Source: Streptomyces sp. NBC_01689 (lineage in GTDB: Bacteria; Actinomycetota; Actinomycetes; Streptomycetales; Streptomycetaceae). Taken from it: a stretch of 64,000 nt of DNA. The translations under genes and the position numbers were made by a program. Shown here in pieces: positions 30,839 to 53,594 of the stretch (position 1 is the stretch's first letter; every line of letters starts with the position of its first letter). Below the pieces are notes generated by a model. The model ran no database searches. It saw only the letters and a program-made list of their open reading frames with translations, and was not told the DNA's origin. The DNA lies in NCBI RefSeq assembly GCF_036250675.1, contig NZ_CP109592.1, positions 1,798,001 through 1,862,000 on the forward strand, given 5' to 3'.

Positions 30839-31588
30839 TCAGGCGTGCGTACCCGCGGCCCGCTGCTCGACGAGCCAGTCGGTGAAGGTCTGGGTGCCCC
30901 GGAGTCCCGGGCCGGTCGGCAGCAGGCCGCCGCTGTTCATCCCGCCGGGGAGGTACAGGGGCAGGACCGGGCGCCGTCGTACGCCTCCCGCGGCGATCCG
31001 GCGCCGGGCCATGTCGACCAGCGACTCCACCCGCGGACCGGCGATCTCGGGTGCCATGCCCTGCGGCGCCGCGACGACGAGGTCGGCGAGGGCTTCGGCC
31101 ACCTCCCGGACGGCGACGGGCTGGACCCGCCCCATGGGAACCGTCGCGATCGGCCCGGGCAGGGTGTCCAGCATTTGCTCCGCGAATTCGTGGAACTGCG
31201 TGGCCCGCAGCACGGTCCACGGCACCGGGCCGCCGCGGACGATCTCCTCCTGCCGGAGTTTCCCCGCGTAGTACGGATTCTTGACCCTGTCGATCCCCAC
31301 GATCGACAGCGTCACGAGATGGCCCACGCCTGCCCGCTCCGCCGCGCCGAGGAGCTGCCGGCCCGCCCGGTCGAAGAAGTCCACCGCGACGGATCTGCGC
31401 ATCGTCGTCACGTTGCTGACGTCGACGACCGCCTCGGCGCCGGCCAGCGCCGCATCCAGTCCGGACCCGCTCAGCAGGTCGACACCCTGCCGGCGGGACA
31501 ACACCACCGGCGCGTGCCCGCGACTCCGCAGCACCTCCACGACCAGCCGCCCGGCGGTTCCCGTACCGCCGGCCACCGCGATCTTCAT
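30839..31588 (-). CDS. NmrA-like NAD(P)-binding epimerase/reductase
   Basis: A 249-aa atypical SDR. KIAVAGGTGTAGRLVVEVLRSRGH is the GGTGxxG dinucleotide motif, followed by the family segments VVDVSNVTT, LVTLSIVGIDR, YYAGKLRQEEIV (YxxxK) and WTVLRATQFHEF. ATG 31588 is chosen since an exact ECF41-type promoter (TGTCACA, 16 bp, CGTCAT) ends 38 bases upstream. It is a paralogue of the gene at 41805, which has the same kind of promoter. Epimerases and oxidoreductases are typical ECF41 targets. Confidence 0.9.
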   Translation of the reverse strand: MKIAVAGGTGTAGRLVVEVLRSRGHAPVVLSRRQGVDLLSGSGLDAALAGAEAVVDVSNVTTMRRSVAVDFFDRAGRQLLGAAERAGVGHLVTLSIVGIDRVKNPYYAGKLRQEEIVRGGPVPWTVLRATQFHEFAEQMLDTLPGPIATVPMGRVQPVAVREVAEALADLVVAAPQGMAPEIAGPRVESLVDMARRRIAAGGVRRRPVLPLYLPGGMNSGGLLPTGPGLRGTQTFTDWLVEQRAAGTHA

Positions 31589-31625
31589 GACTGCTCCTGT
31601 CCCACTAGACGCTGTACGGGTACAT

Positions 31626-31652
31626 GACGGCGGAGACCCGGAAAGTGTGACA
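31626..31652 (-). promoter_or_regulatory. ECF41-type promoter 1 (NmrA-like gene)
   Basis: Reading the minus strand: TGTCACA (31652-31646), 16 bases, CGTCAT with CGTC at 31629-31626. This matches both known ECF41 elements exactly. The NmrA-like ATG is 38 bases downstream. Confidence 0.8.
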
Positions 31653-31748
31653 TCGGGACTCCCGGCCGGGGGCGTCACCCGACGGCCGCCGAGCGGACGG
31701 CCACCGCGGCCCGAACCCCCGGCCGCGAACCATGACAGAACTCTCCGA

Positions 31749-31775
31749 TGTCACATATCGGCCACATCGGCGGTC
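31749..31775 (+). promoter_or_regulatory. ECF41-type promoter 2 (phosphatase-GlxA gene)
   Basis: TGTCACA (31749-31755), 16 bases, GGTC at 31772-31775 continuing ATAC. It is divergent to promoter 1 and 121 bases upstream of the fusion gene start. The rest of the 308-bp gap 31589-31896 shows no gene. Confidence 0.7.
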
Positions 31776-31896
31776 ATACAGGGAAAGCCCGCGACTGTGG
31801 CCCCGCTCGAAGCGCGCCTCCACAGAACAGGCCCGTCGACCGTCCGCCGCGTTCGACCGGCCGGGCAGTGGTCCCCGACCCCGTTAGGAACAGTGC

Positions 31897-34335
31897 GTGA
31901 TCACCTCTCCCACCCTCCCCGACCCCGCCGTGACCCCCTGGTGGAACGACGGCCCCGCCGCCGCCGACCGGACCGGCGTCCGCGGCGGCTCCCCGTGGTC
32001 GCGTCTGCTGCCGGCCGTCGCCCTCCTGGCCCTGGTGAGCGCCATCGCCCTCGACGGGGCGTTCGTTCCCGCCATGGGCTGGGCGACCCTGCTCGCGGCC
32101 GTCTCTGCGGTGGCGGCCACGTTCGCGGGCCCCACGCTCACCGGAGGAGTCGTCCTCGTCTCGGGCGCGGCCAGGATCGGCCTCGACCTGAGTTGTTCCC
32201 GGCTCCTGTCCGCCACCGCCTCGCATTCCGTCACCATGCTGCTCGTCCCCGCGGTCGTCACCGCCTTCTGCGGCCTGCGCCGGCGTCACCGCACGGAGGT
32301 GAGCACCTTGCGCGCCGTCTCGGAGATCGCGCAGGGGGTCGTCCTGCGCCCTCTTCCCGACCGGCTCGGACCGCTGCGCGTCGCCGCGACCTATCAGGCG
32401 TCCGACGCGCACGCCACGGTCGGCAGCGATCTGTACGGGGCCGTCCGCGTCCCCGGTGCCACCCGGGTCCTCATCGGTGACGTCCGCGGCAAGGGCCTGC
32501 AGGGGATCCACGAGGTCGCGGCCGCGCTCGGCGCGTTCCGGGAGGCGGCCCGCTGCCACCCCAGCCTCCCCGAGGTCGCCGCTCATCTGGAGGCCAGCAT
32601 CCGCAGTCATCTGGACGAGGCCGTCGAGACCGATCACGAGGCCGGTGAACGCTTCGTCACCGCTCTGCTGCTGGAGATCCCCGACGACCACCGCGTGGTC
32701 CACACGGTCAGCTGCGGCCATCCCGCGCCCCTGCTGTCGGGCGGAGGCCGGACCGTCCACCTCAAGCCCCGCCGGTGCAGCCCGCCCCTGGGCCTGGGCA
32801 GCGTCTCCGCCCGCGACCACCACCAGGACACCTTCCCCTTCACCGCCGAGGACGTGCTGATGCTCTACACCGACGGCATCACCGAGGCCCGCGACGAGGC
32901 CGGCGCCTTCTACCCCCTGAAGGACCGCGTCGCCTCCTGGACGGGCACCGGCCCCGGCCCACTCCTCCGGTACGTCCAGGACGACCTCTCCCGGCACATC
33001 AGCGGCCCCCTCGGGGACGACGCCGCCATGATCGCCCTGCAGCGCACCACCGATCCCGCGCCGCCCCGGGTGCCCGGAGCCGGAACGGCCGGGCCGTCGG
33101 CCCAGGACCCTACGGATCACCACGGCAGCGCCGCTCCGCGCTCGCCGCGGACCGTGCCCGCACCCGCGCCTGCGCCTGCGCCTGCGCCTGCGGGACCGGA
33201 ACAGCGGCGCACGGGGAAGGAACACACCGTGCCCCCCGGCCCGTCCCGGGTCCGCTCCACGGCGGGCGACCGGAACGCCGGACCTCATCACGTCCTCATG
33301 CTGATGTTCGACGGCGTGCAGGCGCTCGACGTCACCGGACCTCTGGACGTGTACGCCGCGGCCAACGAGTCCGGCGGCGACTACCGCCTGACCACCGCGT
33401 CCCCGGACGGGCGGCCGGTGCGCACCACCTCCGGACTCCGGCTCGTGCCGGACGCGGCGCTCGGCGACGTCGGTCCGGGCGTCGACACCCTCGTGGTCCC
33501 CGGCGGCCCCCGGTGGTGGGAGGCGGTCGCCGACCCTCCGCTGATCGAGGGGATCGCGCGGCTCGCCGAAGAGTCCCCCACCGCGACGGTCGCGGCCGTC
33601 TGCGCCGGAACGTTCCCGCTGGCCGAGACCGGTCTCCTGGACGGGCGCCGGGCCGCCACCCACTGGAAGCTCGCCGCGGATCTCGCCGCCCGCCGTCCCC
33701 GCGTCCGGGTGGATGCCGAGGCGATCTTCGTCAGGGACGGCAGGTTCGTCACCTCGGCCGGGGTCACCGCGGGCATCGATCTGGCGCTGTCGCTCGTCGA
33801 ATCCGATCTGGGCCCGGAGGTCGCCCGCGCGGTGGCCAAGTACCTGGTGGTCTTCATGGCCCGCCCCGGCGGACAGTCCCAGTTCAGCGTGCGCCAGCAG
33901 TCCCCACGGCCCGAGAACTCGCCGTTGCGCGCCGTCCTGGACCGCGTGGCCGCCGACCCGCGGGGGGACCACAGCCTGCAGGCACTGGCCGACCGGGCCG
34001 CCCTGAGCTCACGGCACCTGACGCGGCTGTTCCGTACGGAGGTCGGCACCACGGCCGGCGAGTACGTGAAGCGCGTCCGCCTGGAGGCGGCACAAGCGCT
34101 TCTCGAAGGCGGGGACGAACCGCTCGGGACCGTCGCGCGACGCAGCGGATTCGGTACGGAGGAGACCATGCGGCGGGCCTTCCGCGGCCGGCTCGGGGTG
34201 AGCCCCGGCACCTACCGGGACCGCTTCCGCACCACGGCGGCGACGGTCCCGAGCCGCGATGGACGGGCGGCCTTCCCGGGTCCCGCGGCCCCGTCCGGCC
34301 GCCCGGTGCCCTCCAGGACCGCAGACCCTTCGTGA
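31897..34335 (+). CDS. Fusion of SpoIIE-type PP2C phosphatase and GlxA-type AraC regulator
   Basis: One uninterrupted 812-codon frame. Residues about 35-110: hydrophobic helices. About 130-388: a SpoIIE/RsbU-type phosphatase with GSDLYGAVRV, IGDVRGKGLQ, SCGHPAPLL, LMLYTDGITEARD and GDDAAMIALQ (metal Asp residues). A Pro/Ala linker with an (AP)n run follows. From about 455 a DJ-1/PfpI domain (MFDGVQALDVTGPLDVY, AAVCAGTFPLAETG) and from about 680 a double HTH (LADRAALSSRHLTRLFRTE, FGTEETMRRAFRGRLGVSPGTYR). GTG 33229 (codon 445) has GGAAGGA 9 bases upstream and could start a separate GlxA protein. These modules are normally separate genes. An ECF41-type promoter precedes it. Confidence 0.85.
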   Translation: MITSPTLPDPAVTPWWNDGPAAADRTGVRGGSPWSRLLPAVALLALVSAIALDGAFVPAMGWATLLAAVSAVAATFAGPTLTGGVVLVSGAARIGLDLSCSRLLSATASHSVTMLLVPAVVTAFCGLRRRHRTEVSTLRAVSEIAQGVVLRPLPDRLGPLRVAATYQASDAHATVGSDLYGAVRVPGATRVLIGDVRGKGLQGIHEVAAALGAFREAARCHPSLPEVAAHLEASIRSHLDEAVETDHEAGERFVTALLLEIPDDHRVVHTVSCGHPAPLLSGGGRTVHLKPRRCSPPLGLGSVSARDHHQDTFPFTAEDVLMLYTDGITEARDEAGAFYPLKDRVASWTGTGPGPLLRYVQDDLSRHISGPLGDDAAMIALQRTTDPAPPRVPGAGTAGPSAQDPTDHHGSAAPRSPRTVPAPAPAPAPAPAGPEQRRTGKEHTVPPGPSRVRSTAGDRNAGPHHVLMLMFDGVQALDVTGPLDVYAAANESGGDYRLTTASPDGRPVRTTSGLRLVPDAALGDVGPGVDTLVVPGGPRWWEAVADPPLIEGIARLAEESPTATVAAVCAGTFPLAETGLLDGRRAATHWKLAADLAARRPRVRVDAEAIFVRDGRFVTSAGVTAGIDLALSLVESDLGPEVARAVAKYLVVFMARPGGQSQFSVRQQSPRPENSPLRAVLDRVAADPRGDHSLQALADRAALSSRHLTRLFRTEVGTTAGEYVKRVRLEAAQALLEGGDEPLGTVARRSGFGTEETMRRAFRGRLGVSPGTYRDRFRTTAATVPSRDGRAAFPGPAAPSGRPVPSRTADPS
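33163..33192 (+). repeat. GCGCCT tandem repeat in the fusion linker
   Basis: About five copies of a GCGCCT-type hexamer encode the alternating Ala-Pro run joining the phosphatase to the GlxA part. A slippage-prone tract at the exact junction is a plausible place for a length change that fused two neighbouring genes. Confidence 0.5.
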
Positions 34336-34400
34336 CCCGCGTCCACGACCGCGGACCCCTCACGAGCCGCGTCCACGACCGCGGACCCCTCGTGACCCGC
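34321..34400 (+). repeat. 30-bp tandem repeat at the end of the fusion gene
   Basis: A 30-bp unit ending GCGTCCACGACC is present in two full copies (34321-34350, 34351-34380) and a partial third to 34400. The first copy carries the stop codon of the fusion gene. Confidence 0.6.
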
Positions 34401-35088
34401 GGGCCGTCCCGCACCCGTTCGGTACCGCGCAACGGCCGGCTCCGTCGGCGGTGACCGCGGGCCTCCGCCCTTGCGCGGCGGGCGAGTGCGACGACCGCAC
34501 ACCGTCCGGTCCGCGCACACCCCGCTCCGCCGGGCCGGTCACCCGCCCCTCCCCCGCGCGTCGAACGTGGGACGTGCGGGACCATCCGCCCGGCGGTGGG
34601 CGGGACCGTCCGCGTGGCGGTGCGAGACCCGTCCGCGTGGCGGTGACCGCGGGCGGCCCGGCTCCGGCGGAGTGGGACCGGCCACCCCGACTCCCCGAAG
34701 CGCGCCGGTGCGGCGGGCGACGGTACCTACCGTCGCCCGCCGCACCGGCCGTACTCGCCCTCTCGGCGCACCCCCCGCACAGGCGGCAGCCACCGCGCCG
34801 GCCGTATCCGCCGTATCCACCCCGTCGGCCAAGTAGGCCGCGGTGGCCGTCCTCAAGGGACAGCCGCTCGGTCCCGCTCCGCCGCGGTCACCCGGTCCCT
34901 CTCAGGTTCATCATGCCGGGCGGCACCCAGGACGCGCCCGGAGCGGGAAGGACATCGATACCACGGATCGGGCCATCGGGACGTCGCACGGTCGCGGGCC
35001 GCCGAACTCGGGCCCCCGGGCGGGCTGCCGGAGTCCGCCGCGGGCGGCGCCTCCTCGCGGGGGACTCCCGGCGAGGAAGCCGTCGCTG
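34336..35088. other. Intergenic stretch without a supportable gene
   Basis: Between the convergent fusion gene and the 132-aa gene. It contains the 30-bp repeats, imperfect repeats of CCGTCCGCGTGGCGG near 34600-34640, and a large perfect palindrome at 34704-34749. Open frames on both strands are Arg/Pro/Gly-rich with no family features, and I regard them as chance. Confidence 0.5.
34704..34749. terminator. 22-bp-arm perfect inverted repeat between convergent genes
   Basis: The arm 34704-34725 (GCCGGTGCGG...CGACGGTA) is the exact reverse complement of 34728-34749, separated by CC. A 22-bp stem without mismatch between convergent transcription units is best read as a bidirectional terminator. 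Confidence 0.7.
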
Positions 35089-35487
35089 TCAGGACCGCGG
35101 TGCGAGGGTGACGTTCCCCAGCACGTCCCGCAGTATCCGCTGGACTTCCACGCTCTCGACCCGGTCGACGCCGTCGGCCTCCCCCCAAGCGGCCCGCTCC
35201 GGGGCGCTGTCGGCACGCCGGAGTGCCGCCAGGGACGCCTGACAGGAGCTGTGGGCGTGATCCACGACGTAGTACCGCCACACGGGCGGCCGGTCCGTGT
35301 CGCGCGTCTCCAGACCCACCAGCCACATCTCCTGGGGAGGGGGCGGCGGCCACTCCTCGGTGGCCAGGCCGTCGGAGGGGAACTCCGCGTGCGCGAGGGA
35401 GTCGTCGACGCCCCACGGATTCCGCGATGCGGAAAAATCGGTCACGTACACACCCCGACAGATGCATGTGTCGGCCTCGAGCAACAT
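35089..35487 (-). CDS. Hypothetical protein, ECF41-type promoter
   Basis: A 132-aa soluble protein I do not recognise. Visible features: a Cys-containing start (LLEADTCICRGVYVTDFS), EEWPPPPPQEMWLVGLETRDTD, VWRYYVVDHAHSSCQASLAALRRAD and an acidic/hydrophobic C-terminal helix. Codon choice is strongly Streptomyces-like, supporting a real gene. ATG 35487 has GGGAGG about 9 bases upstream. An ECF41-type promoter lies 110 bases upstream. The conserved-looking VDHAH and SSC could be metal or redox positions, but that is a guess. Confidence 0.6.
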   Translation of the reverse strand: MLLEADTCICRGVYVTDFSASRNPWGVDDSLAHAEFPSDGLATEEWPPPPPQEMWLVGLETRDTDRPPVWRYYVVDHAHSSCQASLAALRRADSAPERAAWGEADGVDRVESVEVQRILRDVLGNVTLAPRS

Positions 35488-35596
35488 GACGTCTCGCCTC
35501 CCGTCCTGGGGCTCTCGCGGCACCTCGGGTGCCACGGCGTTCGGTCCAGGCTGCGGTCTCGCACCGGCCTGACTGATTTTCTCCGTCTACCTGAAT

Positions 35597-35623
35597 GACT
35601 GGACGGCACGCCGGTTTGTGACA
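35597..35623 (-). promoter_or_regulatory. ECF41-type promoter 3 (132-aa gene)
   Basis: Minus strand: TGTCACA (35623-35617), 16 bases, AGTC (35600-35597) continuing ATTC. It is divergent to promoter 4. The gap 35488-35958 holds no gene. Confidence 0.6.
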
Positions 35624-35823
35624 GCCGTCACATCGACGACCGGGCGCGGCGAGGGCGGCCGGACGGACGAGGGGGCCATGGACCGGTACGCACGGCGCAC
35701 GTGTGCCCCGGAACCCCCGGCGACTCCGGGCCGTCCAGGACACCGTGCCGGCACTCCCGCCGCCCGGAGGGAACCGGCGGCCTCCCCGGCACGTCCTGAA
35801 CCTCCGGATCGAGCAGCCACCGA

Positions 35824-35850
35824 CGTCACAACTGATCCACTCAACCGGTC
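35824..35850 (+). promoter_or_regulatory. ECF41-type promoter 4 (amidase gene)
   Basis: CGTCACA (35824-35830, first base differs from consensus), 16 bases, GGTC (35847-35850) continuing ATACA, 108 bases upstream of the amidase TTG start. The -10 and its flank match promoter 2. Confidence 0.6.
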
Positions 35851-35958
35851 ATACACTCGTTGGCACTTCGGGTCGCCGACACCGGTCACCCTGCTCGGCC
35901 GCCTGGTCATGGGCCAGTTGACGGCCATTCACGCGACATTTCCGTAAGGATCAGCATC

Positions 35959-37893
35959 TTGCACAAGAGGAAGAAACGGCTGCGGCTCTCGGCCGCGCTC
36001 GCGGTCAGCGCCCTGACCGCGGGAGGCCTGGCCACCCTGCCCTTCACCGCGCTGGCCGACACCGCCCGGAACGGGCCGGACGCCTCCCGGCAGCAGGACT
36101 TCAGTGCAGCCGCCGCGCGGTACCACATCCCCCTCGACATCCTGCTCGGCCTCGCCTACCAGGAGTCGGGCTGGCAGTCGCACGGTGAACTGCCCAGCAC
36201 CGACGGTGGCTTCGGCCCCATGCATCTCACCGACGTCACCCCCGCCATGATGGCCGGCAACGACGCCGGCGCCGCCGGACGCAGCGACCTCGCCACCCTC
36301 GCCGCGAACCCGGCCCTGCACACCCTGCAGGCGGCCGCCGAACTCACCGGCCTGTCCCCCGAGACGCTGCGCAGCGACCCGGCCGCGAACATCCGCGGTG
36401 GAGCCGCTCTGCTCGCCTCGTACCAGAAGGAGTTGACCGGCGGCACGCCGGCCGACGCCGCCCAGTGGTACGGAGCCGTCGCCCGCTACAGCCAGTCCAC
36501 CCAGAAGCAGGCCGCCGTCCGGTTCGCCGACCGTGTCTTCGCCACGATCCGTGCCGGTGCGACCGGCGGGACGGACGACGGCGGGCGGGTCCGGCTGGCC
36601 GCCGCTCCCTCGGTGCGGCCCGCGACCGCCCAGGTCGACCGGCTGCATCTGAAGGCCGCGGCCGCCACCGCCGCCGACATCGAGTGCCCCGCCTCCGTGG
36701 ACTGTTCGTTCGTGCCGGGTTCCGCGGCCGGCGGCCAGGTCTCCAACCGGCCCGCCAACGGCATCCGCATCGACACCATCGTCATCCACGACCTGGAGTC
36801 CACCTACCAGGCCGGCATCAACACCCTCGCCGACCCGAAGAACGCCGCCTCCACGCACTACGTGATGCGCTCCTCCGACGGCGCGGTGACCCAGATGGTC
36901 CCCACCAAGGACATCGCGTTCCAGGCCGGGAACTACTCCTCCAACCTGCACTCCATCGGTATCGAGCACGAGGGATACGCCGCACAGGGCGCGACCTGGT
37001 ACACCGAGGCCCAGTACGAGGCCACCGCCGACCTGGTCAAATACCTCGCCGGCCGGTTCGGGATACCCCTGGACCGCCAGCACATCATCGGTCACGACAA
37101 CGTTGCCGGACCGAATTCCTCCCTGGTCTCGGGCATGCACTGGGACCCGGGCAACGGCTGGGACTGGGACCACTTCATGCGCCTGCTCGGCCGCCCCCTC
37201 GGCGGTCCGCACGCCACCCCGTCCATCGGCTCCGTCGTCACCATCGACCCGCCCTTCGCCGACAACGTGCAGACCGTCAACGTCTGCCCCGCCGACGACC
37301 CCACCGGCGCCACCCCCGCCTGCACCGACAAGGAGCAGGCGTCCAACTTCGTCTACCTGCGGACCGCGCCCGACGCCACCGCGCCGCTCTTCGCCGACCA
37401 GGCCATCCACCCGACCGGCACGGGCACCGACCGGATCAACGACTGGGGCAGCACCGCACAGTCCGGACAGCAGTTCGTCGTCGCCGACGTCCAGGACGAC
37501 TGGACCGCGATCTGGTACAGCGGCGCCAAGGTCTGGTTCCACAACCCCGACGGCGAGAACACCCGCACCGCCTACGGCGTCAAGATCATCAAGCCGTCCG
37601 GCACCAGCCCCGTGGCCGTCTACGGTTCCAGCTACCCGGACAAGTCCGAGTACCCCACCGGCCTCGGCGCCTCCACCCAGGCACCCCTGAGCATGTACAC
37701 CGTCCCCGCGGGCCAGGCCTACGTGGCCACCCAGGCCCCCGCGGCCACCGACGACTACTTCACCTCCGGAGCGGTCGTCATCGGCGCCAAGAAGATGTAC
37801 ACCGTCCAGTACAACCACCGCGTGGCGCTCCTCTACGCCGACGACGTCACCGCGACCACCGCGACCCACCACTGGGAAGACGGCGGCAACTGA
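35959..37893 (+). CDS. Secreted N-acetylmuramoyl-L-alanine amidase (multi-domain)
   Basis: A 644-aa exported protein starting at TTG 35959 (AAGGA 9 bases upstream), with signal peptide HKRKKRLRLSAALAVSALTAGG...ALA. Residues about 45-200 are helical with YQESGWQSHG and GFGPMHLTDV, resembling a lytic-transglycosylase/lysozyme-like fold. About 269-400 is an amidase_2/PGRP domain (DTIVIHDLEST, STHYVMRSSDG, SIGIEHEGYA, HIIGHDNVAGP supply the Zn and catalytic His positions). The C-terminal part (NFVYLRTAPDA, VWFHNPDG) is SH3-like. It should cleave peptidoglycan stem peptides. It has an ECF41-type promoter upstream and a textbook terminator downstream. Confidence 0.88.
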   Translation: MHKRKKRLRLSAALAVSALTAGGLATLPFTALADTARNGPDASRQQDFSAAAARYHIPLDILLGLAYQESGWQSHGELPSTDGGFGPMHLTDVTPAMMAGNDAGAAGRSDLATLAANPALHTLQAAAELTGLSPETLRSDPAANIRGGAALLASYQKELTGGTPADAAQWYGAVARYSQSTQKQAAVRFADRVFATIRAGATGGTDDGGRVRLAAAPSVRPATAQVDRLHLKAAAATAADIECPASVDCSFVPGSAAGGQVSNRPANGIRIDTIVIHDLESTYQAGINTLADPKNAASTHYVMRSSDGAVTQMVPTKDIAFQAGNYSSNLHSIGIEHEGYAAQGATWYTEAQYEATADLVKYLAGRFGIPLDRQHIIGHDNVAGPNSSLVSGMHWDPGNGWDWDHFMRLLGRPLGGPHATPSIGSVVTIDPPFADNVQTVNVCPADDPTGATPACTDKEQASNFVYLRTAPDATAPLFADQAIHPTGTGTDRINDWGSTAQSGQQFVVADVQDDWTAIWYSGAKVWFHNPDGENTRTAYGVKIIKPSGTSPVAVYGSSYPDKSEYPTGLGASTQAPLSMYTVPAGQAYVATQAPAATDDYFTSGAVVIGAKKMYTVQYNHRVALLYADDVTATTATHHWEDGGN

Positions 37894-37909
37894 CAACCCG
37901 GTCGGCACA

Positions 37910-37955
37910 GTGAGGGGTCTGGCCCGGTGGCACACCACCGGGCCAGACCCCTCAC
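37910..37955 (+). terminator. Terminator of the amidase gene
   Basis: Perfect 21-bp stem (37910-37930 with 37935-37955; arm begins GTGAGGGGTC) with the tetraloop CACA, 17 bases after the stop codon. Confidence 0.85.
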
Positions 37956-38064
37956 CCCACAGCCGCCGCCCCGCCAGGGCCGGACCCTTCGCGTGTCCGT
38001 CCCGTCGGCGGACACCAGGCGGCACCGCTCGCCCAACTCATCGTCTCCGAGGAGAAGTTGAAAG

Positions 38065-38147
38065 GACCGCCGTCGCCCCGGACGCGTACTGGTGACCCGT
38101 GCGACGGAAGTCGGGTCCCTCCCGGGTCACCAGTACGCCGGCGGTCC
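38065..38147 (-). terminator. Nested hairpin after the ferritin-like gene
   Basis: CGTACTGGTGACCCG (38085-38099) pairs exactly with CGGGTCACCAGTACG (38123-38137); outside it GGACCGCC near 38065 pairs with GGCGGTCC near 38140. It lies just beyond the stop of the minus-strand ferritin-like gene and faces the amidase terminator. Confidence 0.65.
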
Positions 38148-38160
38148 GTGACGGCGTCGC

Positions 38161-39231
38161 TCAGCCGCGCAGTTCGGGTGCGATGTACTCGAAGGTCGGA
38201 CCGGCGGACGTGTCGTCCCCGTCAGGTGTCTGCATCAGGCTCTGCGCCTGCGCCTTGAGGGCGTACATCGTGCCTGTCGCGGCCCCCAGCGTCTTCGGGC
38301 TGCCGTTGAAGGCCTCCTCCAACTGGTTCAGCAGGACGCAGTACGTCTTGTTGAACTGTTCCTGGGCGGTCCGGATCGGACTGCCCACGGGGTGGTCCGC
38401 CATCCGCGGATCGGGGCGCATCGGGTACACGCCTTCGAGGTCGACCGCGACCGCTTCGCCCGTGGGCCCGGATCGCGGCGTGTCACCCCGCCGGTAGCGC
38501 CGCCCCGCCTTGAGTTCCTGGAACCGGAAGTAATGGGCGACCTCGTCGCGCTCGGAGTGGAAGATGTCCGCGTCGCCGTCCCAGACCTCACCGCGGGACG
38601 CGCCCTCGCCCTGTTCCACGATCTCCTTCAGTGCCGCCAGCGCCGAGTCGAGGCCGGTGACCGCGGTCATCTTCGCGCCCGTGTGCGCGAAGGGGCCCGC
38701 GGCGGCCTGACGGGCCGGATCGCCGCAGAAGACCGCGGCCTCGCCGAGTTCGGCACACAGGTGGCGCAGTCCTCGCTCGATGGCGTCGTAGAACTGTCCG
38801 ATCGTCTCGTAGTCGTCGCCCTCCGCGGGCGCACCGGGTCGCGCGGGCCGCTCCAGACGGAGGAACATCTCCAGCGCCTGCGGCCCGAAGGGCACCAGCG
38901 ACATCTCCAGCGAGCGATCTCCGTGCGGCAGACGCCTGGGATGCTGAGGCAGCATCTCCGGCATGTCGAGGCGGGGCCTGCCGCCCACCGCGTTGAGGAG
39001 GTTCGCCGCCAGTGCCAGGTGGATCATCTCCTCGACGAAGACGCCGCTCACGACCTGGGCGGCGTCCGGGTTCCTCGTCGGGTCCAGCGAGTAGAGGGCG
39101 CAGAGATAGGGCGGCAGAGTGGCGTGTTCCAGTTCGATCGCCCATTGCAGATGTTCTCGGAGGCTCTCCAGGGTCGTGATTGCTGCCGGTGAACGTGTCT
39201 CGGTGACGTCGGACTGTTCTTGACGGGGCAC
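38161..39231 (-). CDS. Ferritin-like domain protein (VioB/RebD-type N-terminal fold)
   Basis: A 356-aa protein of the ferritin-like PF12902 family. The first diiron-type helix pair is visible: LQWAIELEHATLPPYLCALYSLDP and VFVEEMIHLALAANLLNAVGGRPRL, with a further HSERDEVAHYFRFQEL segment supplying Glu/His ligands. The C-terminal VYPMRPDPRMADHPVGS and AQEQFNKTYCVLLNQLEEAF are also family-typical. Relatives include catalytic domains of iminophenylpyruvate dimer synthases, but many are uncharacterised. GTG 39231 is chosen from a GAGAAGA site. An ECF41-like promoter (15-bp spacer) lies 235 bases upstream. Confidence 0.82.
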   Translation of the reverse strand: MPRQEQSDVTETRSPAAITTLESLREHLQWAIELEHATLPPYLCALYSLDPTRNPDAAQVVSGVFVEEMIHLALAANLLNAVGGRPRLDMPEMLPQHPRRLPHGDRSLEMSLVPFGPQALEMFLRLERPARPGAPAEGDDYETIGQFYDAIERGLRHLCAELGEAAVFCGDPARQAAAGPFAHTGAKMTAVTGLDSALAALKEIVEQGEGASRGEVWDGDADIFHSERDEVAHYFRFQELKAGRRYRRGDTPRSGPTGEAVAVDLEGVYPMRPDPRMADHPVGSPIRTAQEQFNKTYCVLLNQLEEAFNGSPKTLGAATGTMYALKAQAQSLMQTPDGDDTSAGPTFEYIAPELRG

Positions 39232-39465
39232 AGGTCTTCTCGCTTCGACTGCTGAGGACGGGTGAGTACGCGGGTGGCGACGGCGGTTCGGGCCGTACGC
39301 CGGGGCGGCCGAGCAGTGTCCGGCGGACGCGGACCTCGCCGGCCGGACGGGTTCCGTACGGTCGGCGGGAGCCGCGTCCAGGACGGTCGACGCCTCCGAC
39401 CGGTGCGGCCTTCAGGCCGTTCCCGGTCCGCCGGGACACCCGCCACCGTTCGCCCCTCAACCAAG

Positions 39466-39491
39466 ACAGGACCGCCGCCGGAACTGTGACA
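39466..39491 (-). promoter_or_regulatory. ECF41-like promoter 5 (ferritin-like gene)
   Basis: Minus strand: TGTCACA (39491-39485), 15 bases, TGTC (39469-39466). It is one base shorter than the other sites and lacks the AT after GTC, so it is the weakest of the set. The rest of 39232-39704 has no gene. Confidence 0.45.
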
Positions 39492-39644
39492 GCGGCTCCA
39501 CGATCGGTGCCGGTGCGCACCCCGCCGTCGGATGCCGCCCCGCGTTGCGCCCGGCCCGCGCGCCCGGCCCACCCCCGGGGCCGCCGCATCCCGGGAACCG
39601 GCGCGACGGGCTCCCGGGCCCGCACGGACCCCACCCCGCTTACT

Positions 39645-39661
39645 CGGACAATTTTTGTCCG
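39645..39661. promoter_or_regulatory. AT-rich palindrome upstream of the ECF41 gene
   Basis: CGGACAA-TTT-TTGTCCG is a perfect 7-bp inverted repeat in an unusually A/T-rich stretch for this genome (through TGGCAATATTTGC at about 39674), 44 bases upstream of the sigma factor ATG. It probably marks the sigma gene promoter and a regulator binding site. No TGTCACA site points at the sigma gene itself. Confidence 0.5.
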
Positions 39662-39704
39662 TGGCAATATTTGCGCCGTGGCGGTAGCGAACTTGGAGGC
39701 TCCT

Positions 39705-40601
39705 ATGCACGCCGGCAATGACATCGACACCCTCGACCGGGCGACGAGGGATTTCGTCGCGGCCCGTCCCCAGCTCTTCGGCATCGCCTACCGCGTGCTC
39801 GGCAGCTCGACGGAGGCCGAGGACGTCGTGCAGGAGACCTGGCTGCGCTGGCAGAGCACCGACCGCACCGGCATCCGCGAGCCCGCGGCGTTCCTCGCGA
39901 CGGTCACCGCCCGGCTGGCGATCAATCTCGCCCAGTCCGCCCGGGTGCGGCGCGAGAGGTACATCGGGCCCTGGCTGCCCGAGCCCGTCGACACCGGTGT
40001 GGACCCGCAGCTGGGCGCGGAACGGGCCGAGGCCCTGGACCTCGCCGTCCTCTTCCTGCTGGAGAAGCTCAACCCGGTGGAGCGGGCCGCGTACGTCCTG
40101 CGGGAGGCCTTCGACTACCCGTACGCGAGGATCGCGGACATCCTGGAGACCAGTCACGTCAACGCACGTCAGCTGGTCAGCCGGGCCCGCAAGCATCTCG
40201 CGGCGGAGCGCAGGGAACCGGTCAGCCCCGCGGTTCACCGCCGGCTGCTGGAGGTCTTCCTCGCGGCGGCGCGGACCGGCCGCCTGTCGGCGCTGGAGGA
40301 CGTGCTCAGCGCCGACGTGGTCAGTTACGCCGACGGCGGAGGCATCCGCGGCGCGTCCAGGATCCCGGTCGTCGGGCGGCTCCGTGTGTCCAAGTACCTC
40401 GCCGCCTTCGCCCCGCGCTTCTGGCCCCCGGCCGAGGTGCGCTGGGTCGAGGCCAACGGCCGCCCCGCCGTCCTCGTCTCGGTCGACGGCACCCCCGTGG
40501 CCCTGCTCTCCGTGGACGTGTCGGAACGCGGCATCGAACGCGTCATGTGGGTCATGAACCCCGCCAAGCTGGGCCCCTACGCCGCCTCGCTCGACCGGTG
40601 A
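39705..40601 (+). CDS. ECF41-family RNA polymerase sigma factor
   Basis: A 298-aa sigma factor. Region 2 spans about residues 20-90 (LFGIAYRVLGSSTEAEDVVQETWLRW) and region 4 about 108-165 (LLEKLNPVERAAYVLREAFDYPYARIADILETSHVNARQLVSRARKHL). A SnoaL-like C-terminal domain follows. The ECF41 hallmarks are present: WLPEP (90-94) between regions 2 and 4, DGGG (210-213), and NPAKL (285-289; family NPDKL). In this group the fused C-terminal domain controls activity instead of a separate anti-sigma factor. ATG 39705 has TTGGAGG 5 bases upstream. Eight sites like its known promoter lie within 8 kb upstream and 4 kb downstream. Confidence 0.92.
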   Translation: MHAGNDIDTLDRATRDFVAARPQLFGIAYRVLGSSTEAEDVVQETWLRWQSTDRTGIREPAAFLATVTARLAINLAQSARVRRERYIGPWLPEPVDTGVDPQLGAERAEALDLAVLFLLEKLNPVERAAYVLREAFDYPYARIADILETSHVNARQLVSRARKHLAAERREPVSPAVHRRLLEVFLAAARTGRLSALEDVLSADVVSYADGGGIRGASRIPVVGRLRVSKYLAAFAPRFWPPAEVRWVEANGRPAVLVSVDGTPVALLSVDVSERGIERVMWVMNPAKLGPYAASLDR

Positions 40602-40799
40602 TCCGACGCTCGCGAGCGAGCAACGGATCCCCGCCGAGCACGGGAGGCACCGCCCCACGCCGCGTTCGCATCTGCACGGGCCCGGCCGGGGAAACCACCG
40701 ACCGCGGCCCTCGCGGCGCGGGACCGGTCCACGGTGGGACCGGACACGGCACCCCCGGCCCAGGAGTCGGCCCCCGGCCCGAGAAGCGGCAGCGACCGT

Positions 40800-40833
40800 C
40801 CGCCCGCCGGCTCGGACCCGTTCCGGCGGGCGG
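40800..40833. terminator. Hairpin between the ECF41 and cupin genes
   Basis: CCGCCCGCCGG (40800-40810) and CCGGCGGGCGG (40823-40833) pair perfectly with a 12-base loop. It lies between convergent stops (40601 and 40963). Otherwise the 361-bp gap shows a weaker CCGGTCC/GGACCGG repeat at 40724-40743 and no gene. Confidence 0.55.
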
Positions 40834-40962
40834 TCGGCATCCTGCGGCCCATGGCCAGGCGGGCGCAGGTCAGGAGGCCATGAGCGGCAGCACGGCGAGT
40901 CATCCAGCCCCTCGCGATCATGCCGGCCGCGTGCGGAAGCCGCTCGGAGGCGGCCCGCCGGG

Positions 40963-41427
40963 TCAGACGCCGGGGCGCGGCGCGCGCAGAGGGGCGCGCT
41001 GGGCGAGTTCCTCCTCGTCGACGAGTTCGAGCATGGGCCTGCCCGGTGCGCAGAGCATCGTCACCACGAAGCGCGTGCGGGCGTCGGCCAGCGCGTTGCC
41101 GTCCTGGTAGTGGATGACGTCGCCGCCCGGTTCCCAGAACGTACCGCCGGCCTCGATCACGCGCTCGGGCTCGCCTTCGAGCTCGAAGCGGACCGCGCCC
41201 TCCACGACGTACCCGAACGCGGGGCCCGAGTGACGGTGCGGAGGGGTTCCCGGGTCGCCGGGCTCCCATGCGACGTGGATCGTCATCGCCGAGGCACCCT
41301 CGGGGACGGTGATCGGCGAGGCGTCCTGAAGCATCTTCGCCGCCCGCGTCCAGCTCGGCCCGTCCTCGCCGTTCCCGTGGCCGCCGTGCCCATGACCGTG
41401 ACCGTGCGCTGAGTCCTTGTCCGACAC
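40963..41427 (-). CDS. Cupin-domain protein
   Basis: A 154-aa protein. A His/Gly-rich N-terminus (SDKDSAHGHGHGHGGHG) may bind metal. The cupin core has TIHVAWEPGDPGTPPHRHSGPAFGYVVEG (HxH metal site) and GGTFWEPGGDVIHYQDGN (second motif His). GTG 41427 follows GGAAGG by 9 bases. An ECF41-type promoter lies about 100 bases upstream, divergent to that of the NmrA-like gene. Its first residues, SDKDSAH, closely resemble those of the VOC protein at 43604 in the same putative regulon. Enzymatic role unknown. Confidence 0.85.
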   Translation of the reverse strand: MSDKDSAHGHGHGHGGHGNGEDGPSWTRAAKMLQDASPITVPEGASAMTIHVAWEPGDPGTPPHRHSGPAFGYVVEGAVRFELEGEPERVIEAGGTFWEPGGDVIHYQDGNALADARTRFVVTMLCAPGRPMLELVDEEELAQRAPLRAPRPGV

Positions 41428-41527
41428 TGTGCCGCACCTTCCGTAGATCATCCGGGTGGCCATGGGCGCCCCACGTCCGACGGACCCGAGGTCACGTCCC
41501 CGGCTCCCATGGCCGTCTGCCCGTGAT

Positions 41528-41554
41528 GACCGGGGAACCCATGGATCTGTGACA
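41528..41554 (-). promoter_or_regulatory. ECF41-type promoter 6 (cupin gene)
   Basis: Minus strand: TGTCACA (41554-41548), 16 bases, GGTC (41531-41528) continuing ATCA. The GTG of the cupin gene is about 100 bases downstream. Confidence 0.7.
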
Positions 41555-41666
41555 CGGAGGACGTCTCGTCGTTCCCGGGCCCGCGGGGCCGCGTCCCGTC
41601 CGGCGGCGCCATGGCATCCCCGCGCCGATCCCCACGTCACGCCCGCGGCCCTCGCCACGGGGGCGG

Positions 41667-41693
41667 TGTCACACGGCCCGCCGCTGCCCTGTC
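41667..41693 (+). promoter_or_regulatory. ECF41-type promoter 7 (NmrA-DUF427 operon)
   Basis: TGTCACA (41667-41673), 16 bases, TGTC (41690-41693), 111 bases upstream of the NmrA-like ATG. It is divergent to promoter 6. Confidence 0.6.
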
Positions 41694-41804
41694 TGTGCAA
41701 GTACAGACCCGGCCGCACCGTGCGGACGAGAGCCCCCTCGACGGGGGACCACGTCGGCTTCCGCCGCGCACCGCACAGCGGCACCCATCCGAGAGGACCC
41801 CATC

Positions 41805-42551
41805 ATGAAGGTTGTAGTCATCGGCGGAACCGGACTCATCGGATCGAAACTGGTGAGCAAGCTCGCCGGGCACGGCCACGAGGCGGTGCCCGCTTCCCCC
41901 GGCAGCGGGGTGAACACACTGACGGGCGAGGGCGTGGCCGAGGTCCTGCGGGGGGCCCAGGTGGTCGTGGACGTCTCCAACTCCCCCTCGTTCGCGGACG
42001 ACGACGTCATGGCGTTCTTCCGCACCTCGACCACGAACCTCCTCAGGGCCGGGCAGGAGGCGGGTGTGACCCACCATGTCGCGCTCTCCGTGGTCGGTAC
42101 CGAACGCCTGCAGGAGAGCGGCTACTTCCGCGCCAAGCAGGTGCAGGAGGATCTGATCAAGGCGTCGGGGATTCCCTACTCCCTCGTGCACGCCACGCAG
42201 TTCTTCGAGTTCATGAAGGGCATCGCGGAGTCGGCCACCCAGGGTGACACCGTGCGTCTCGCCCCCGTCGGGATCCGGCCGGTGTACTCCGACGACGTCG
42301 CCGCCGCCGTGGGTGTCACCGCCGTCGGCGCCCCCGTCCACGGCGTGGTCGAGGTCGCGGGGCCCGACACGTTCCAGCTCGACGAGCTGATCGCCGGGAG
42401 TCTCGCCGCCGGGAACGACCCGCGCACGGTCGTGGCGGACCCGAAGGCCCCTTACTTCGGTGCCCAGTTGCGGGAGACCACCCTGCTCCCCGGCCCCGAC
42501 GTCCGCGTCGGGGCGGTGCGGTTCGCCGACTGGGCCGCCCGGCAGCGGTAG
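41805..42551 (+). CDS. NmrA-like NAD(P)-binding epimerase/reductase
   Basis: A 248-aa atypical SDR with VVVIGGTGLIGSKLVSKL (dinucleotide motif), VVDVSNSPSFAD, HVALSVVGTERLQESGYFRAKQVQEDLI (YxxxK), YSLVHATQFFEFM and VEVAGPDTFQLDELI. It closely parallels the gene at 30839-31588, which has the same promoter type; the two are probably paralogues acting on related substrates. GAGAGGA lies 6 bases before the ATG. A DUF427 gene follows after 55 bases. Confidence 0.9.
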   Translation: MKVVVIGGTGLIGSKLVSKLAGHGHEAVPASPGSGVNTLTGEGVAEVLRGAQVVVDVSNSPSFADDDVMAFFRTSTTNLLRAGQEAGVTHHVALSVVGTERLQESGYFRAKQVQEDLIKASGIPYSLVHATQFFEFMKGIAESATQGDTVRLAPVGIRPVYSDDVAAAVGVTAVGAPVHGVVEVAGPDTFQLDELIAGSLAAGNDPRTVVADPKAPYFGAQLRETTLLPGPDVRVGAVRFADWAARQR

Positions 42552-42606
42552 TGGTGCTCCGCCCGGCACCGAGAGCTCGTGTCACGACCGAACCGAGGAG
42601 AACCCG

Positions 42607-43377
42607 ATGACCGAAGAGAGCGTGTTGCACCCACGGCTGATCGCGCCGGTCGGACACGTGGAGCCCGTACCACGGCGTATCCGCGGGCTGATCGGCGGCC
42701 GCACCGTCTTCGACACCCGGCGCGCGCTGTACGTGTGGGAGTGGCTCGCCTACCCGCAGTTCAGCATCCCCGTCGAGGACCTGGCCGAGGGGGTGCTGAC
42801 GGACGACGGCCATGTCGAGGTGCTCGGCGCCGGGCCCGCGCGCCGCCATTCCCTGCGCGTGGGGTCCGAGGTCCGCCACGGCGCGGCGTGGGTCTGGGAC
42901 AAGGACGCCCCGGAGCCCCTGCGCGGCACCGTCCGCTTCGAATGGAAGGCGCTGGACTCCTGGTTCGAGGAGGACGAACCGGTCTTCGTCCACCCGCGAA
43001 GCCCCTACTCCCGGGTGGACGCCCTGCGTTCGTCGAGCGGGGTTCGCGTGGAGCTGGACGGCGTCGTGCTGGCGGACGCGCCGAACTGCGTGAAGCTGTT
43101 CGAGACCGGTCTGCCGACCCGGTACTACCTCGACCGCGAACACGTCGACTGGACCCTGCTGCGCCGCTCCGACACGGTGACGCACTGCCCGTACAAGGGA
43201 ACGACCAGCAGTTACTGGTCGTTCGACAGCGACGTGTCCACCCACGACGACATCGCCTGGATGTACGACTTCCCCACCATTCAGGCCAACCGCATCGCGG
43301 GCATGACGGCGTTCTACAACGAACACGTCGACCTGTTCGTCGACGGCACCCGGCTGCCTCGCCCCGACGGGCTCTAG
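42607..43377 (+). CDS. DUF427-domain protein
   Basis: A 256-aa protein with a C-terminal DUF427 domain: VRVELDGVVLADAPNCVKLFETGLPTRYYLDREHVDW, then HCPYKGTTSSYWSFDSDVSTHDDIAWMYDFP, the typical CPYKG...W motif. The N-terminal half (RRIRGLIGGRTVFDTRRALYVWEWLAYPQFSIP) is a related, weaker copy. The domain forms a small beta-barrel of unknown function, often near oxidoreductases. GAGGAGAA lies 6 bases before ATG 42607. It is likely in one operon with the NmrA-like gene. Confidence 0.88.
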   Translation: MTEESVLHPRLIAPVGHVEPVPRRIRGLIGGRTVFDTRRALYVWEWLAYPQFSIPVEDLAEGVLTDDGHVEVLGAGPARRHSLRVGSEVRHGAAWVWDKDAPEPLRGTVRFEWKALDSWFEEDEPVFVHPRSPYSRVDALRSSSGVRVELDGVVLADAPNCVKLFETGLPTRYYLDREHVDWTLLRRSDTVTHCPYKGTTSSYWSFDSDVSTHDDIAWMYDFPTIQANRIAGMTAFYNEHVDLFVDGTRLPRPDGL

Positions 43378-43484
43378 AGGCAGTCGTGTCGGAGCGGGAC
43401 CCGTTCGGAGATCCGGCCGGACGGGTCCCGTTCCGGCGCGGTCGTCCGGTGGGACGGGCCCTTCCCCCGACCGGGCGGCGCACC

Positions 43485-43511
43485 TGTCACAGCTCGCCGG
43501 TGCACCCGGTC
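43485..43511 (+). promoter_or_regulatory. ECF41-type promoter 8 (VOC gene)
   Basis: TGTCACA (43485-43491), 16 bases, GGTC (43508-43511) continuing ATCG, 92 bases upstream of the VOC gene start. Confidence 0.7.
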
Positions 43512-43603
43512 ATCGTGGGGAGACGGGCCGCGACGCGCGACCGCACCGACGTGGTGGCGCGATCGCCCCGTGACGTGAGGGACCTACGGGAAGGTACGAG
43601 ACG

Positions 43604-44182
43604 GTGTCGGACAGGGATTCAGCGCACACGGACGGGAACGGCGGCGGTGCGGGGACGGAGCGGCGGGCGGGGAGCGGTGAAGGGACCGCCGGGCACGGCA
43701 CGGCTCCGCGGCCCGGGGACGCGGGACCGACGACCGCTCACGGCGATCTCCCCGTGCCCGAACACGGCCTTCTCCTCACGTACTTCCTGACGGTGACCGA
43801 CGTAGCGGTCTCGCGACGCTTCTACGCCGACGTCTTCGGCGGCGAGGTCGTGATGGAGGAGAATCCGGCGATCGTCAAGGTGGCCAACAGCTGGCTCATC
43901 ATGAATCCCGGCGGCGGACCCACGCCGGACAAGCCGGACGTCACCCTGGAGGTGCCGCGGACGACGGAGCGCGTGTCCAGCTTCCTGAACGTGCGCGTGG
44001 CCGACATGGCGGCGTTCCACGCGCACGCCGTCGCGAAGGGCGCGCGTTTCCTGACCGAGCCCCTCGACCGGGCGTCCGAGGTCCGCTGCTACCTGCGCGA
44101 CCCCGACGGCCATCTCATCGAGGTCGGCCAGTCCACCGGTCTGCTCCGGGGAGTCCTGGCCGCTCCCTCCGACGCGTCCTGA
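43604..44182 (+). CDS. VOC (glyoxalase/bleomycin-resistance) superfamily protein
   Basis: A 192-aa protein with a disordered Gly/Thr-rich N-terminus of about 48 residues, then a VOC domain: LTYFLTVTDVAVSRRFYADVFGGEVVMEE, VSSFLNVRVADMAAFHAHAVAKGARFL and CYLRDPDGHLIEVGQSTG (final metal-site Glu). GTG 43604 follows GGAAGG. The first residues, SDRDSAH, nearly match those of the cupin protein at 40963. It is preceded by an ECF41-type promoter. Confidence 0.85.
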   Translation: MSDRDSAHTDGNGGGAGTERRAGSGEGTAGHGTAPRPGDAGPTTAHGDLPVPEHGLLLTYFLTVTDVAVSRRFYADVFGGEVVMEENPAIVKVANSWLIMNPGGGPTPDKPDVTLEVPRTTERVSSFLNVRVADMAAFHAHAVAKGARFLTEPLDRASEVRCYLRDPDGHLIEVGQSTGLLRGVLAAPSDAS

Positions 44183-53505: not shown

Positions 53506-53594
53506 CACGTCACCCGGGCACGGGAAGCGACCGCGCCCACGGCACGGGAGGGTGCCCGCACCGCCCTCGAGGAAGCCGGGAGGCCCGGCCCCGC

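Follow-up and report, generated by a model that had tools for sequence, protein, structure and literature searches.

For the widespread ECF41 group of sigma factors, the general rule published in 2012 is that each factor controls a single gene or operon; role and inducing signal of the factors studied were unknown in that work, as far as its available text goes (Wecke et al. 2012, PMC3426412). The published promoter of the group has TGTCACA as -35 element and CGTC as -10 consensus, mapped experimentally in other bacteria (available portions of PMC3426412 and PMC3616915); in the ECF41 factors studied most of the C-terminal extension restrains the sigma factor, its partial removal being activating and a part of it being needed for activity, and in some genomes other, mostly hypothetical, neighbours carry the motif (PMC3426412, same portion). 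RpoE9 of S. meliloti belongs to the same group and uses the same motif with one target, a CMD gene likely cotranscribed with rpoE9 (PMC6180224, available portion), Azospirillum RpoE10 has effects past one neighbour gene, on lateral flagella (as cited in the available portions of PMC12826043 and PMC8999054), and a review connects Mycobacterium tuberculosis SigJ with oxidative stress (PMC8103513, available portion). In a stretch of 64 kb from Streptomyces sp. NBC_01689 (GCF_036250675.1, NZ_CP109592.1, positions 1,798,001-1,862,000, forward strand; genome of 9.96 Mb), which as a whole is called the window, an ECF41 gene at 39705-40601 lies among eight putative ECF41-type promoters spread over 12 kb, an arrangement that, judged from the sequence, goes against the published one-gene-or-operon view. 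The region is very likely a multi-operon ECF41 regulon island: the eight matching sites here and the islands of up to about 28 sites in relatives suggest that an entire block of genes for metabolism and stress is probably under the command of this sigma factor. The passages of the ECF41 literature that the searches covered describe no multi-promoter ECF41 island.

The sigma factor is the following.

39705..40601, + strand: ECF41 (SigJ-like) sigma factor, 298 amino acids, with sigma2, WLPEP linker, sigma4 and a C-terminal NTF2/SnoaL-like domain

The protein belongs to the ECF41 group. An earlier note, made from the letters of the window, had assigned it there, naming the WLPEP, DGGG and NPAKL motifs, and all three were confirmed, the first as YIGPWLPEP in the linker, where W90, L91, P92 and P94 are invariant and E93 almost so in 26 aligned sequences, and the other two in the C-terminal extension. 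The match to TIGR02957 (335.9 bits) exceeds the cut-off of 323.25, while that to SigJ (PRK09636; 266.5) falls slightly under the cut-off of 271; PF04542 and PF08281 are present, in the ECF layout with sigma2 and sigma4 only. The closest PDB sequence is SigJ of M. tuberculosis (5xe7, E 2.5e-41), the closest solved structure, whose domain layout is that of the window sigma factor. In the predicted structure (pLDDT 77.4, pTM 0.50, linker modelled with low confidence) the C-terminal domain has an NTF2-like fold, and Foldseek retrieved 5xe7 (E 5.5e-15), 7qh5 and NTF2-like folds; despite the strong Foldseek value, the TM-score to 5xe7 is only 0.38-0.41 with a root-mean-square deviation of 16, perhaps due to a differing or uncertain orientation of the domains in the model. 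Pfam SnoaL_2 gave no match in this protein at E 0.001.

The eight sites, with their scores against a position matrix described below, are as follows; "strict" marks a match of the strict pattern used for the genome scan.

31624..31652, - strand: ECF41-type promoter, NmrA-like gene; TGTCACA-N16-CGTCAT; strict; matrix 12.3
31749..31777, + strand: ECF41-type promoter, SpoIIE-DJ-1/PfpI-AraC fusion gene; strict; matrix 27.0
35595..35623, - strand: ECF41-type promoter, gene for a 132-amino-acid protein; strict; matrix 31.0
35824..35852, + strand: ECF41-type promoter, secreted amidase gene; CGTCACA-N16-GGTCAT; matrix 16.1
39463..39491, - strand: ECF41-type promoter, ferritin-like gene; matrix 29.0
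41526..41554, - strand: ECF41-type promoter, cupin gene; strict; matrix 31.4
41667..41695, + strand: ECF41-type promoter, NmrA-like and DUF427 genes; matrix 28.3
43485..43513, + strand: ECF41-type promoter, VOC gene; strict; matrix 28.9

All eight sites lie at the positions and on the strands that the earlier note had given and each points into a gene; the gap of 15 bp reported for one of them was an error, the spacer of 35824(+) being 16 bases as in the other seven. Between the -10 hexamer and the start codon assumed for the gene there are 35, 119, 107 and 106 nucleotides (nt) for the sites at 31652, 31749, 35623 and 35824 and 231, 98, 109 and 90 nt for those at 39491, 41554, 41667 and 43485, and thus the range of 90-120 bases described as usual holds for six sites and fails for 31652 and 39491. 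TGTCACA occurs nine times in the window (3.6 in shuffled sequence; nine was reached by 2 of 100 shuffles), seven times inside the 12-kb region, the eighth site of the region being CGTCACA. The occurrence at 53507(-), described in the earlier note as lacking GTC at the spacing, has a matrix score of -6.8; it is not the sole other one in the window, since 19583(-) had been missed. The latter has CGTC at spacing 16 and was rejected as a ninth promoter: it fits the pattern and not the refined motif (matrix score only 10.6).

The matrix was derived from 286 sites, none from the source genome, with a fixed spacer of 16 and a threshold of 14 chosen by the analyst. It finds seven of the eight window sites (scores of 16.1 to 31.4), nothing else in the 64 kb and nothing in the reversed window; the site at 31652 falls under the threshold because a C before GTC occurs in none of the 286 training sites. 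Sites were also counted in named loci that encode relatives of the window sigma factor (loci carry L numbers in what follows), the best 80 of 567 confirmed loci from GTDB genomes, a few of which are identical to the segments labelled G below. In these 80 loci there are 287 sites at spacing 16, compared with a mean of 9.7 at 22 other spacings and with one in reversed sequence (1.58 Mb), and L130, from the complete genome of Streptomyces cyaneochromogenes, has 6 sites close to its sigma gene; in the fetched loci of other genomes, GTC follows at spacing 16 after 152 of 192 TGTCACA, the next commonest spacing being 11 (21 cases). Over 299 sites from 83 loci, source genome included, the motif is TGTCACA-N14-(C/T)C-(G/T)GTC-(T/A)T with weak preferences beyond, where the way the sites were selected had already set TGTCACA, the spacing and GTC, and where the bases given first for the spacer end are the majority forms. 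The -35 element (fixed by the search) and the 16-base spacing match the published promoter; the -10 element deviates from the published CGTC (PMC3426412, available portion), being GGTC or TGTC in nearly all sites (base before GTC: G 79%, T 19%).

The earlier note had named many equally good matches across the genome as an outcome contrary to its proposal. A scan with the strict pattern TGTCACA-N15,17-nGTCAT, controlled by the reversed sequence, did not show this outcome: it gave 10 matches in 9.96 Mb and none in reverse; five belong to the window cluster, two lie near 8.286 and 8.296 Mb, at a paralogue of the sigma gene, and single ones at 0.559, 7.360 and 9.020 Mb. The chance of five of ten within a given 11.9 kb is 6e-13, or roughly 4e-8 after correction for the scan. 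With two mismatches allowed there were 76 genome matches versus 56 in reversed sequence, which indicates that this looser pattern is mostly noise. The match at 7359640 is doubtful, having a spacer of 17 and overlapping the script-called start of the gene that follows; this site and 8296130, also with a spacer of 17, are outside the reach of the fixed-spacer matrix.

A search of the source genome with the sigma protein gave 14 matches. The closest paralogue, 89% identical (8,290,651-8,291,541), is 6.45 Mb away within a second promoter cluster (8.28-8.30 Mb; locus L025), a companion island in which six sites stand before genes for a Pyr_redox_2 (NDH-2-like) protein, a second sigma-like protein, a cytochrome b, an SDH-like flavoprotein, a cupin and an AhpD-like CMD protein; one of these sites has a spacer of 17 and the other five are found by the matrix. 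The third paralogue, 76% identical (6.42 Mb), has one good site, before a cupin gene. Four paralogues of 38-45% identity are also present, one of which (9.163 Mb) is preceded at about 100 nt by a loose match under the matrix threshold; the other three have none.

The motif follows the sigma gene in relatives. In a genus sample of 101 genomes, with presence of the sigma factor defined as a match at E<=1e-90, the factor was found in 23, and TGTCACA-N16-GGTCRT was present in 17 of these versus 11 of the 78 without it (Fisher p 1.2e-7); the sites number 51 in the 23 genomes (8 in the source genome) and 12 in the other 78, with four in the reversed sequence of all 101. The first 20 orthologue loci held 0-9 sites each under a looser site definition. 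In 30 segments (861 kb), where one mismatch and spacers of 15-17 were allowed, 168 of 176 sites were intergenic though 76% of the sequence was called coding, and 154 lay from 60 nt inside to 350 nt before a called gene start; under the strict definition, 31 segments (961 kb, window included) gave 194 sites versus one in reversed sequence, the segments being picked for the sigma gene or motif matches, so that these densities are not genome averages. The largest island, in G141, spans 72 kb with 28 strict sites, every one of them intergenic according to the analyst's gene caller, followed by G061 (18 sites in 48 kb), G020 (17 in 38 kb) and G070, G084 and G079 (14 each). In G141, sites stand before an amidase gene (80% identical to that of the window), a ferritin-like gene, two cupin and two NmrA-like genes; members of the flavoprotein, CMD, cytochrome b and second-sigma families are present too, which gives this island most of the content of both islands of the source genome; no NDH-2-like gene was seen in it. 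Three further ECF41-like stretches in the same 72 kb (G141:C2 2968607, 2974892 and 2997870), whose match ends before the C-terminal domain, may be truncated sigma genes or remnants.

The close clade comprises 46 of the named loci, with 72-83% identity of the sigma protein plus L148 at 70%; it has 0-11 sites per locus (median 4.5), compared with 0-6 (median 2) in the other 34 loci. A tree of 83 sigma proteins places 29 of the 31 loci that have at least four sites in a single Streptomycetaceae clade (49 rows, support 100/94). The site-rich label changes 14 times on the tree (shuffled mean 25.1), and well-supported branches impose nine of these changes; gain and loss of islands thus seem frequent, with a label that is biased by the 10-kb flank cut and by contig ends.

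The comparison across related loci proposed in the earlier note showed that the sites track the same gene families through rearranged loci. In the close clade and the three loci of the source genome (49 loci, 846 called genes) a site is present at 201 genes: SDH-like flavoprotein 25/27, NmrA-like 30/41, second sigma 13/21, AhpD-like CMD 13/17, cytochrome b 11/16, NDH-2-like 10/12, FdxA 9/10, OsmC 8/13, cupin 8/11, methyltransferase-like 7/8 and ferredoxin reductase 4/4. Several families have it in a quarter to two thirds of their members and four in 1/5 to 1/10. The distance from site to start codon is mostly characteristic of the family; it is narrow in some families, such as flavoprotein (quartiles 62-66 nt), NDH-2 (30-32) and CMD (34-36), and wide in others. 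A pyruvate dehydrogenase E1 gene often adjoins a site-bearing gene in the islands. Motif, spacing, orientation, clustering and conservation with gene families are matters of observation; that the sites are transcription starts and are used by the window sigma factor is what their sequence suggests.

The genes that the window sites would serve are the following.

30839..31588, - strand: NmrA-like NAD(P)-binding protein, 249 amino acids (PF13460)
31897..34335, + strand: SpoIIE phosphatase - DJ-1/PfpI - AraC HTH protein (SpoIIE-GlxA fusion), 812 amino acids (PF07228, PF01965, PF12833)
35089..35487, - strand: protein of 132 amino acids, no Pfam or NCBIfam match at E 0.001
35959..37893, + strand: secreted N-acetylmuramoyl-L-alanine amidase, 644 amino acids (PF01510, PF01464), TTG start assumed
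38161..39231, - strand: ferritin-like protein, 356 amino acids (PF12902)
40963..41427, - strand: cupin, 154 amino acids (PF07883)
41805..42551, + strand: NmrA-like protein, 248 amino acids (PF13460)
42607..43377, + strand: DUF427 protein, 256 amino acids (PF04248), presumably 3' in the NmrA transcription unit
43604..44182, + strand: VOC/glyoxalase-family protein, 192 amino acids (PF00903)

All nine had been predicted as targets. For six of the eight genes with a putative promoter, homologues that carry a site are present elsewhere, and support is best for the two NmrA-like genes and the cupin gene, whose families usually carry a site. It is weaker for the amidase, with a site at one of 19 homologous loci, which is the closest homologue in G141 (TGTCACA about 100 nt upstream), for the ferritin-like protein (L204 and L133, two of 12 stretches, some partial) and for the VOC protein (L209 and L210, two of 14 loci, L209 being from another family of the order; the VOC homologue in G141 has no site upstream). 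The DUF427 gene has no site of its own in the window, nor was one present within 500 nt upstream in 10 homologous stretches, some partial.

Several observations weigh against command of the whole block by the sigma factor. A corroborating promoter is lacking for the SpoIIE-GlxA fusion, for which local tblastn over the fetched loci gave three partial, weaker and siteless matches, and for the 132-amino-acid protein, for which the same search found no homologue. No nearby site accompanies the amidase homologues in 18 of 19 loci, the ferritin-like ones in 10 of 12 stretches (some partial) and the VOC ones in 12 of 14 loci, and the CGTC of the 31652 site is without counterpart among the 286 sites of other genomes. 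In addition, 19 of the 46 close-clade loci have at most three sites within about 10 kb, 13 families of at least four members (74 genes) have no site at all, and the simple gene caller left 47 of the 299 sites without a gene. Finally, the second sigma of the companion island (L025:3786-4550, - strand) is without the sigma4 segment, which is present in one representative relative; its promoter and C-terminal part are kept.

A plausible, if less than probable, alternative is that the promoters are real and that their main user is the 89% paralogue (8.29 Mb), the 76% paralogue (6.42 Mb) or several ECF41 paralogues acting jointly on a dispersed regulon. Two close paralogues with largely similar DNA-reading regions are in fact present, the same motif is found in both islands, and the window and companion islands have only the sigma and cupin families in common, while G141 unites most of both sets; perhaps one ancestral island was split, with duplication of the sigma gene. 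On the other hand, the sites cluster at the window sigma gene, at its closest paralogue and in many relatives, and clustering around sigma genes fits local control at least in part. With a second island and a simple third locus, the proposed regulon is not purely local, and the sigma factors may cross-talk.

It is improbable that the island merely accumulated by passive copying of one promoter-gene pair, with only some of the copies still working. Copying may well have occurred: the leaders of the cupin (41382-41525) and VOC (43514-43648) genes are homologous beyond the motif, first codons included, with a score of 49.5 versus a null maximum of 34.5 in 2000, which points to a copied promoter-leader segment, and copies of families recur inside islands. 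This is the only one of 28 leader pairs that exceeds all its own shuffles (two more are in the top 2%), and passive copying is at odds with target protein families that are unrelated and with sites that are near-consensus in many species. Still less probable is a role of TGTCACA-N16-GGTC as operator for a repressor or activator protein instead of a sigma promoter, a view to which the length and strength of the motif and its occasional back-to-back placement (L025:4797 and 4812) lend something; the motif is non-palindromic with a spacing rigid at 16, matches the ECF41 promoter mapped by experiment elsewhere (PMC3426412, PMC3616915, available portions) and tracks the ECF41 gene in the genus sample. 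Chance clustering in GC-rich DNA, for which the shortness of TGTCACA, its count in 2 of 100 shuffles and the 76 two-mismatch matches against 56 might speak, was rejected, since strict reversed controls are almost empty (0 in 9.96 Mb, 1 in 1.58 Mb, 1 in 0.96 Mb) and an independently trained matrix recovers the sites.

As for the sigma gene itself, the matrix scan found no site before it, and for this reason its autoregulation is not supported; the sigma family cluster has a site upstream in 12 of 68 genes (close clade and three loci of the source genome), and a housekeeping-like TAGCAT element was seen by eye upstream of the start codon in many orthologues. In the window the following element is present there instead.

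39645..39661, no strand: perfect inverted repeat CGGACAA-TTT-TTGTCCG, 17 bases, 43 bases 5' of the sigma start codon

The repeat suggests a candidate operator for repressor control of the sigma gene; it was not seen by eye in 50 other upstream regions. A similar GGACA-N5-TGTCC is found at L026:9147, close to the promoter of the cupin gene adjoining the third paralogue. No anti-sigma family was matched in Pfam among ten window proteins scanned, one of which matches nothing, with the caveat that cupin folds occur also in the anti-sigma factor ChrR (PMC3426412, available portion).

Other observations concern single genes. In the gene at 31897-34335 a SpoIIE phosphatase is joined in frame to a DJ-1/PfpI-AraC regulator via a Pro-Ala-rich linker; an in-frame GTG at 33229 is accompanied by a ribosome-site-like GGAAGGA, which would make two products possible, and imperfect tandem repeats were seen by eye around and after its stop codon (34330-34400). 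Outside the islands, a site at 0.559 Mb (L028:6901, + strand; matrix 22.3) stands before a nitroreductase gene and another at 9.02 Mb (L029:7442, - strand; matrix 18.3) before an alpha/beta hydrolase gene, both possible satellite members of the regulon.

The locus is similar to Ecf41Bli-ydfG and Ecf41Rsp-RSP_0606 (PMC3426412, available portion) in the WLPEP, DGGG and NP.KL motifs, the C-terminal domain, TGTCACA and the 16-base spacer, and its gene families recall the neighbours in the ECF41 loci of Wecke et al. (CMD, FAD oxidoreductases, NmrA and some cupins; same source). In contrast to the single COE (CMD/oxidoreductase/epimerase) target of those two systems, eight putative promoters lie here within 12 kb, and single islands of relatives reach 28 strict sites. 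COE-type genes are represented by promoter-bearing NmrA-like genes in the cluster, not directly adjoining the sigma gene, and by the CMD and flavoprotein genes of the companion island; on sequence grounds, eight sites here and five to six there depart from the single-target arrangement. Two mycobacterial loci of the sigma group (L150 and L166) have no sites, the locus of SigJ itself not being one of them.

In the proposed mechanism, the gene at 39705-40601 would give a sigma factor that stands alone and has an NTF2-like domain, the presumed sensor, fused to it, its C terminus restraining it presumably as in other ECF41 factors. Release of the sigma core by this domain would direct RNA polymerase to TGTCACA-N16-nGTC promoters and switch on at least eight transcripts, encoding the two NmrA-like proteins (one with DUF427), the SpoIIE-GlxA fusion, the 132-amino-acid protein, the amidase, the ferritin-like protein, the cupin and the VOC protein; the promoters of the companion island would probably be served too. 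Judging from the names of its families, the programme would handle redox or electrophile stress. Islands would grow as genes are recruited via copied or newly formed promoters. A broader proposal, on balance somewhat favoured, is that in Streptomycetaceae a one-component ECF41 factor, uniting sigma and sensor domain in one protein, commands a dedicated and modular island with as many as about 28 promoters. Such an island would encode an alternative and coherent redox programme and would be reshaped from one species to the next as promoters are captured; its content would include an NDH-2-like dehydrogenase, a stand-alone bc1-type cytochrome b, an SDH-like flavoprotein, FdxA ferredoxin and a reductase, AhpD/OsmC peroxidases and more ECF41-like sigma genes.

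A conserved island with recognizable functions supplies reporters with which the signal of the sigma factor could be sought, and with them a hypothesis, namely redox and respiratory rerouting. Command of the block by the sigma factor, if true, would show how an ECF regulon can grow from a single gene pair, since among close relatives the number of sites around the sigma gene runs from 0 to 11; and if the islands do encode an alternative redox programme, they would amount to a sigma regulon put together in the manner of a biosynthetic gene cluster.

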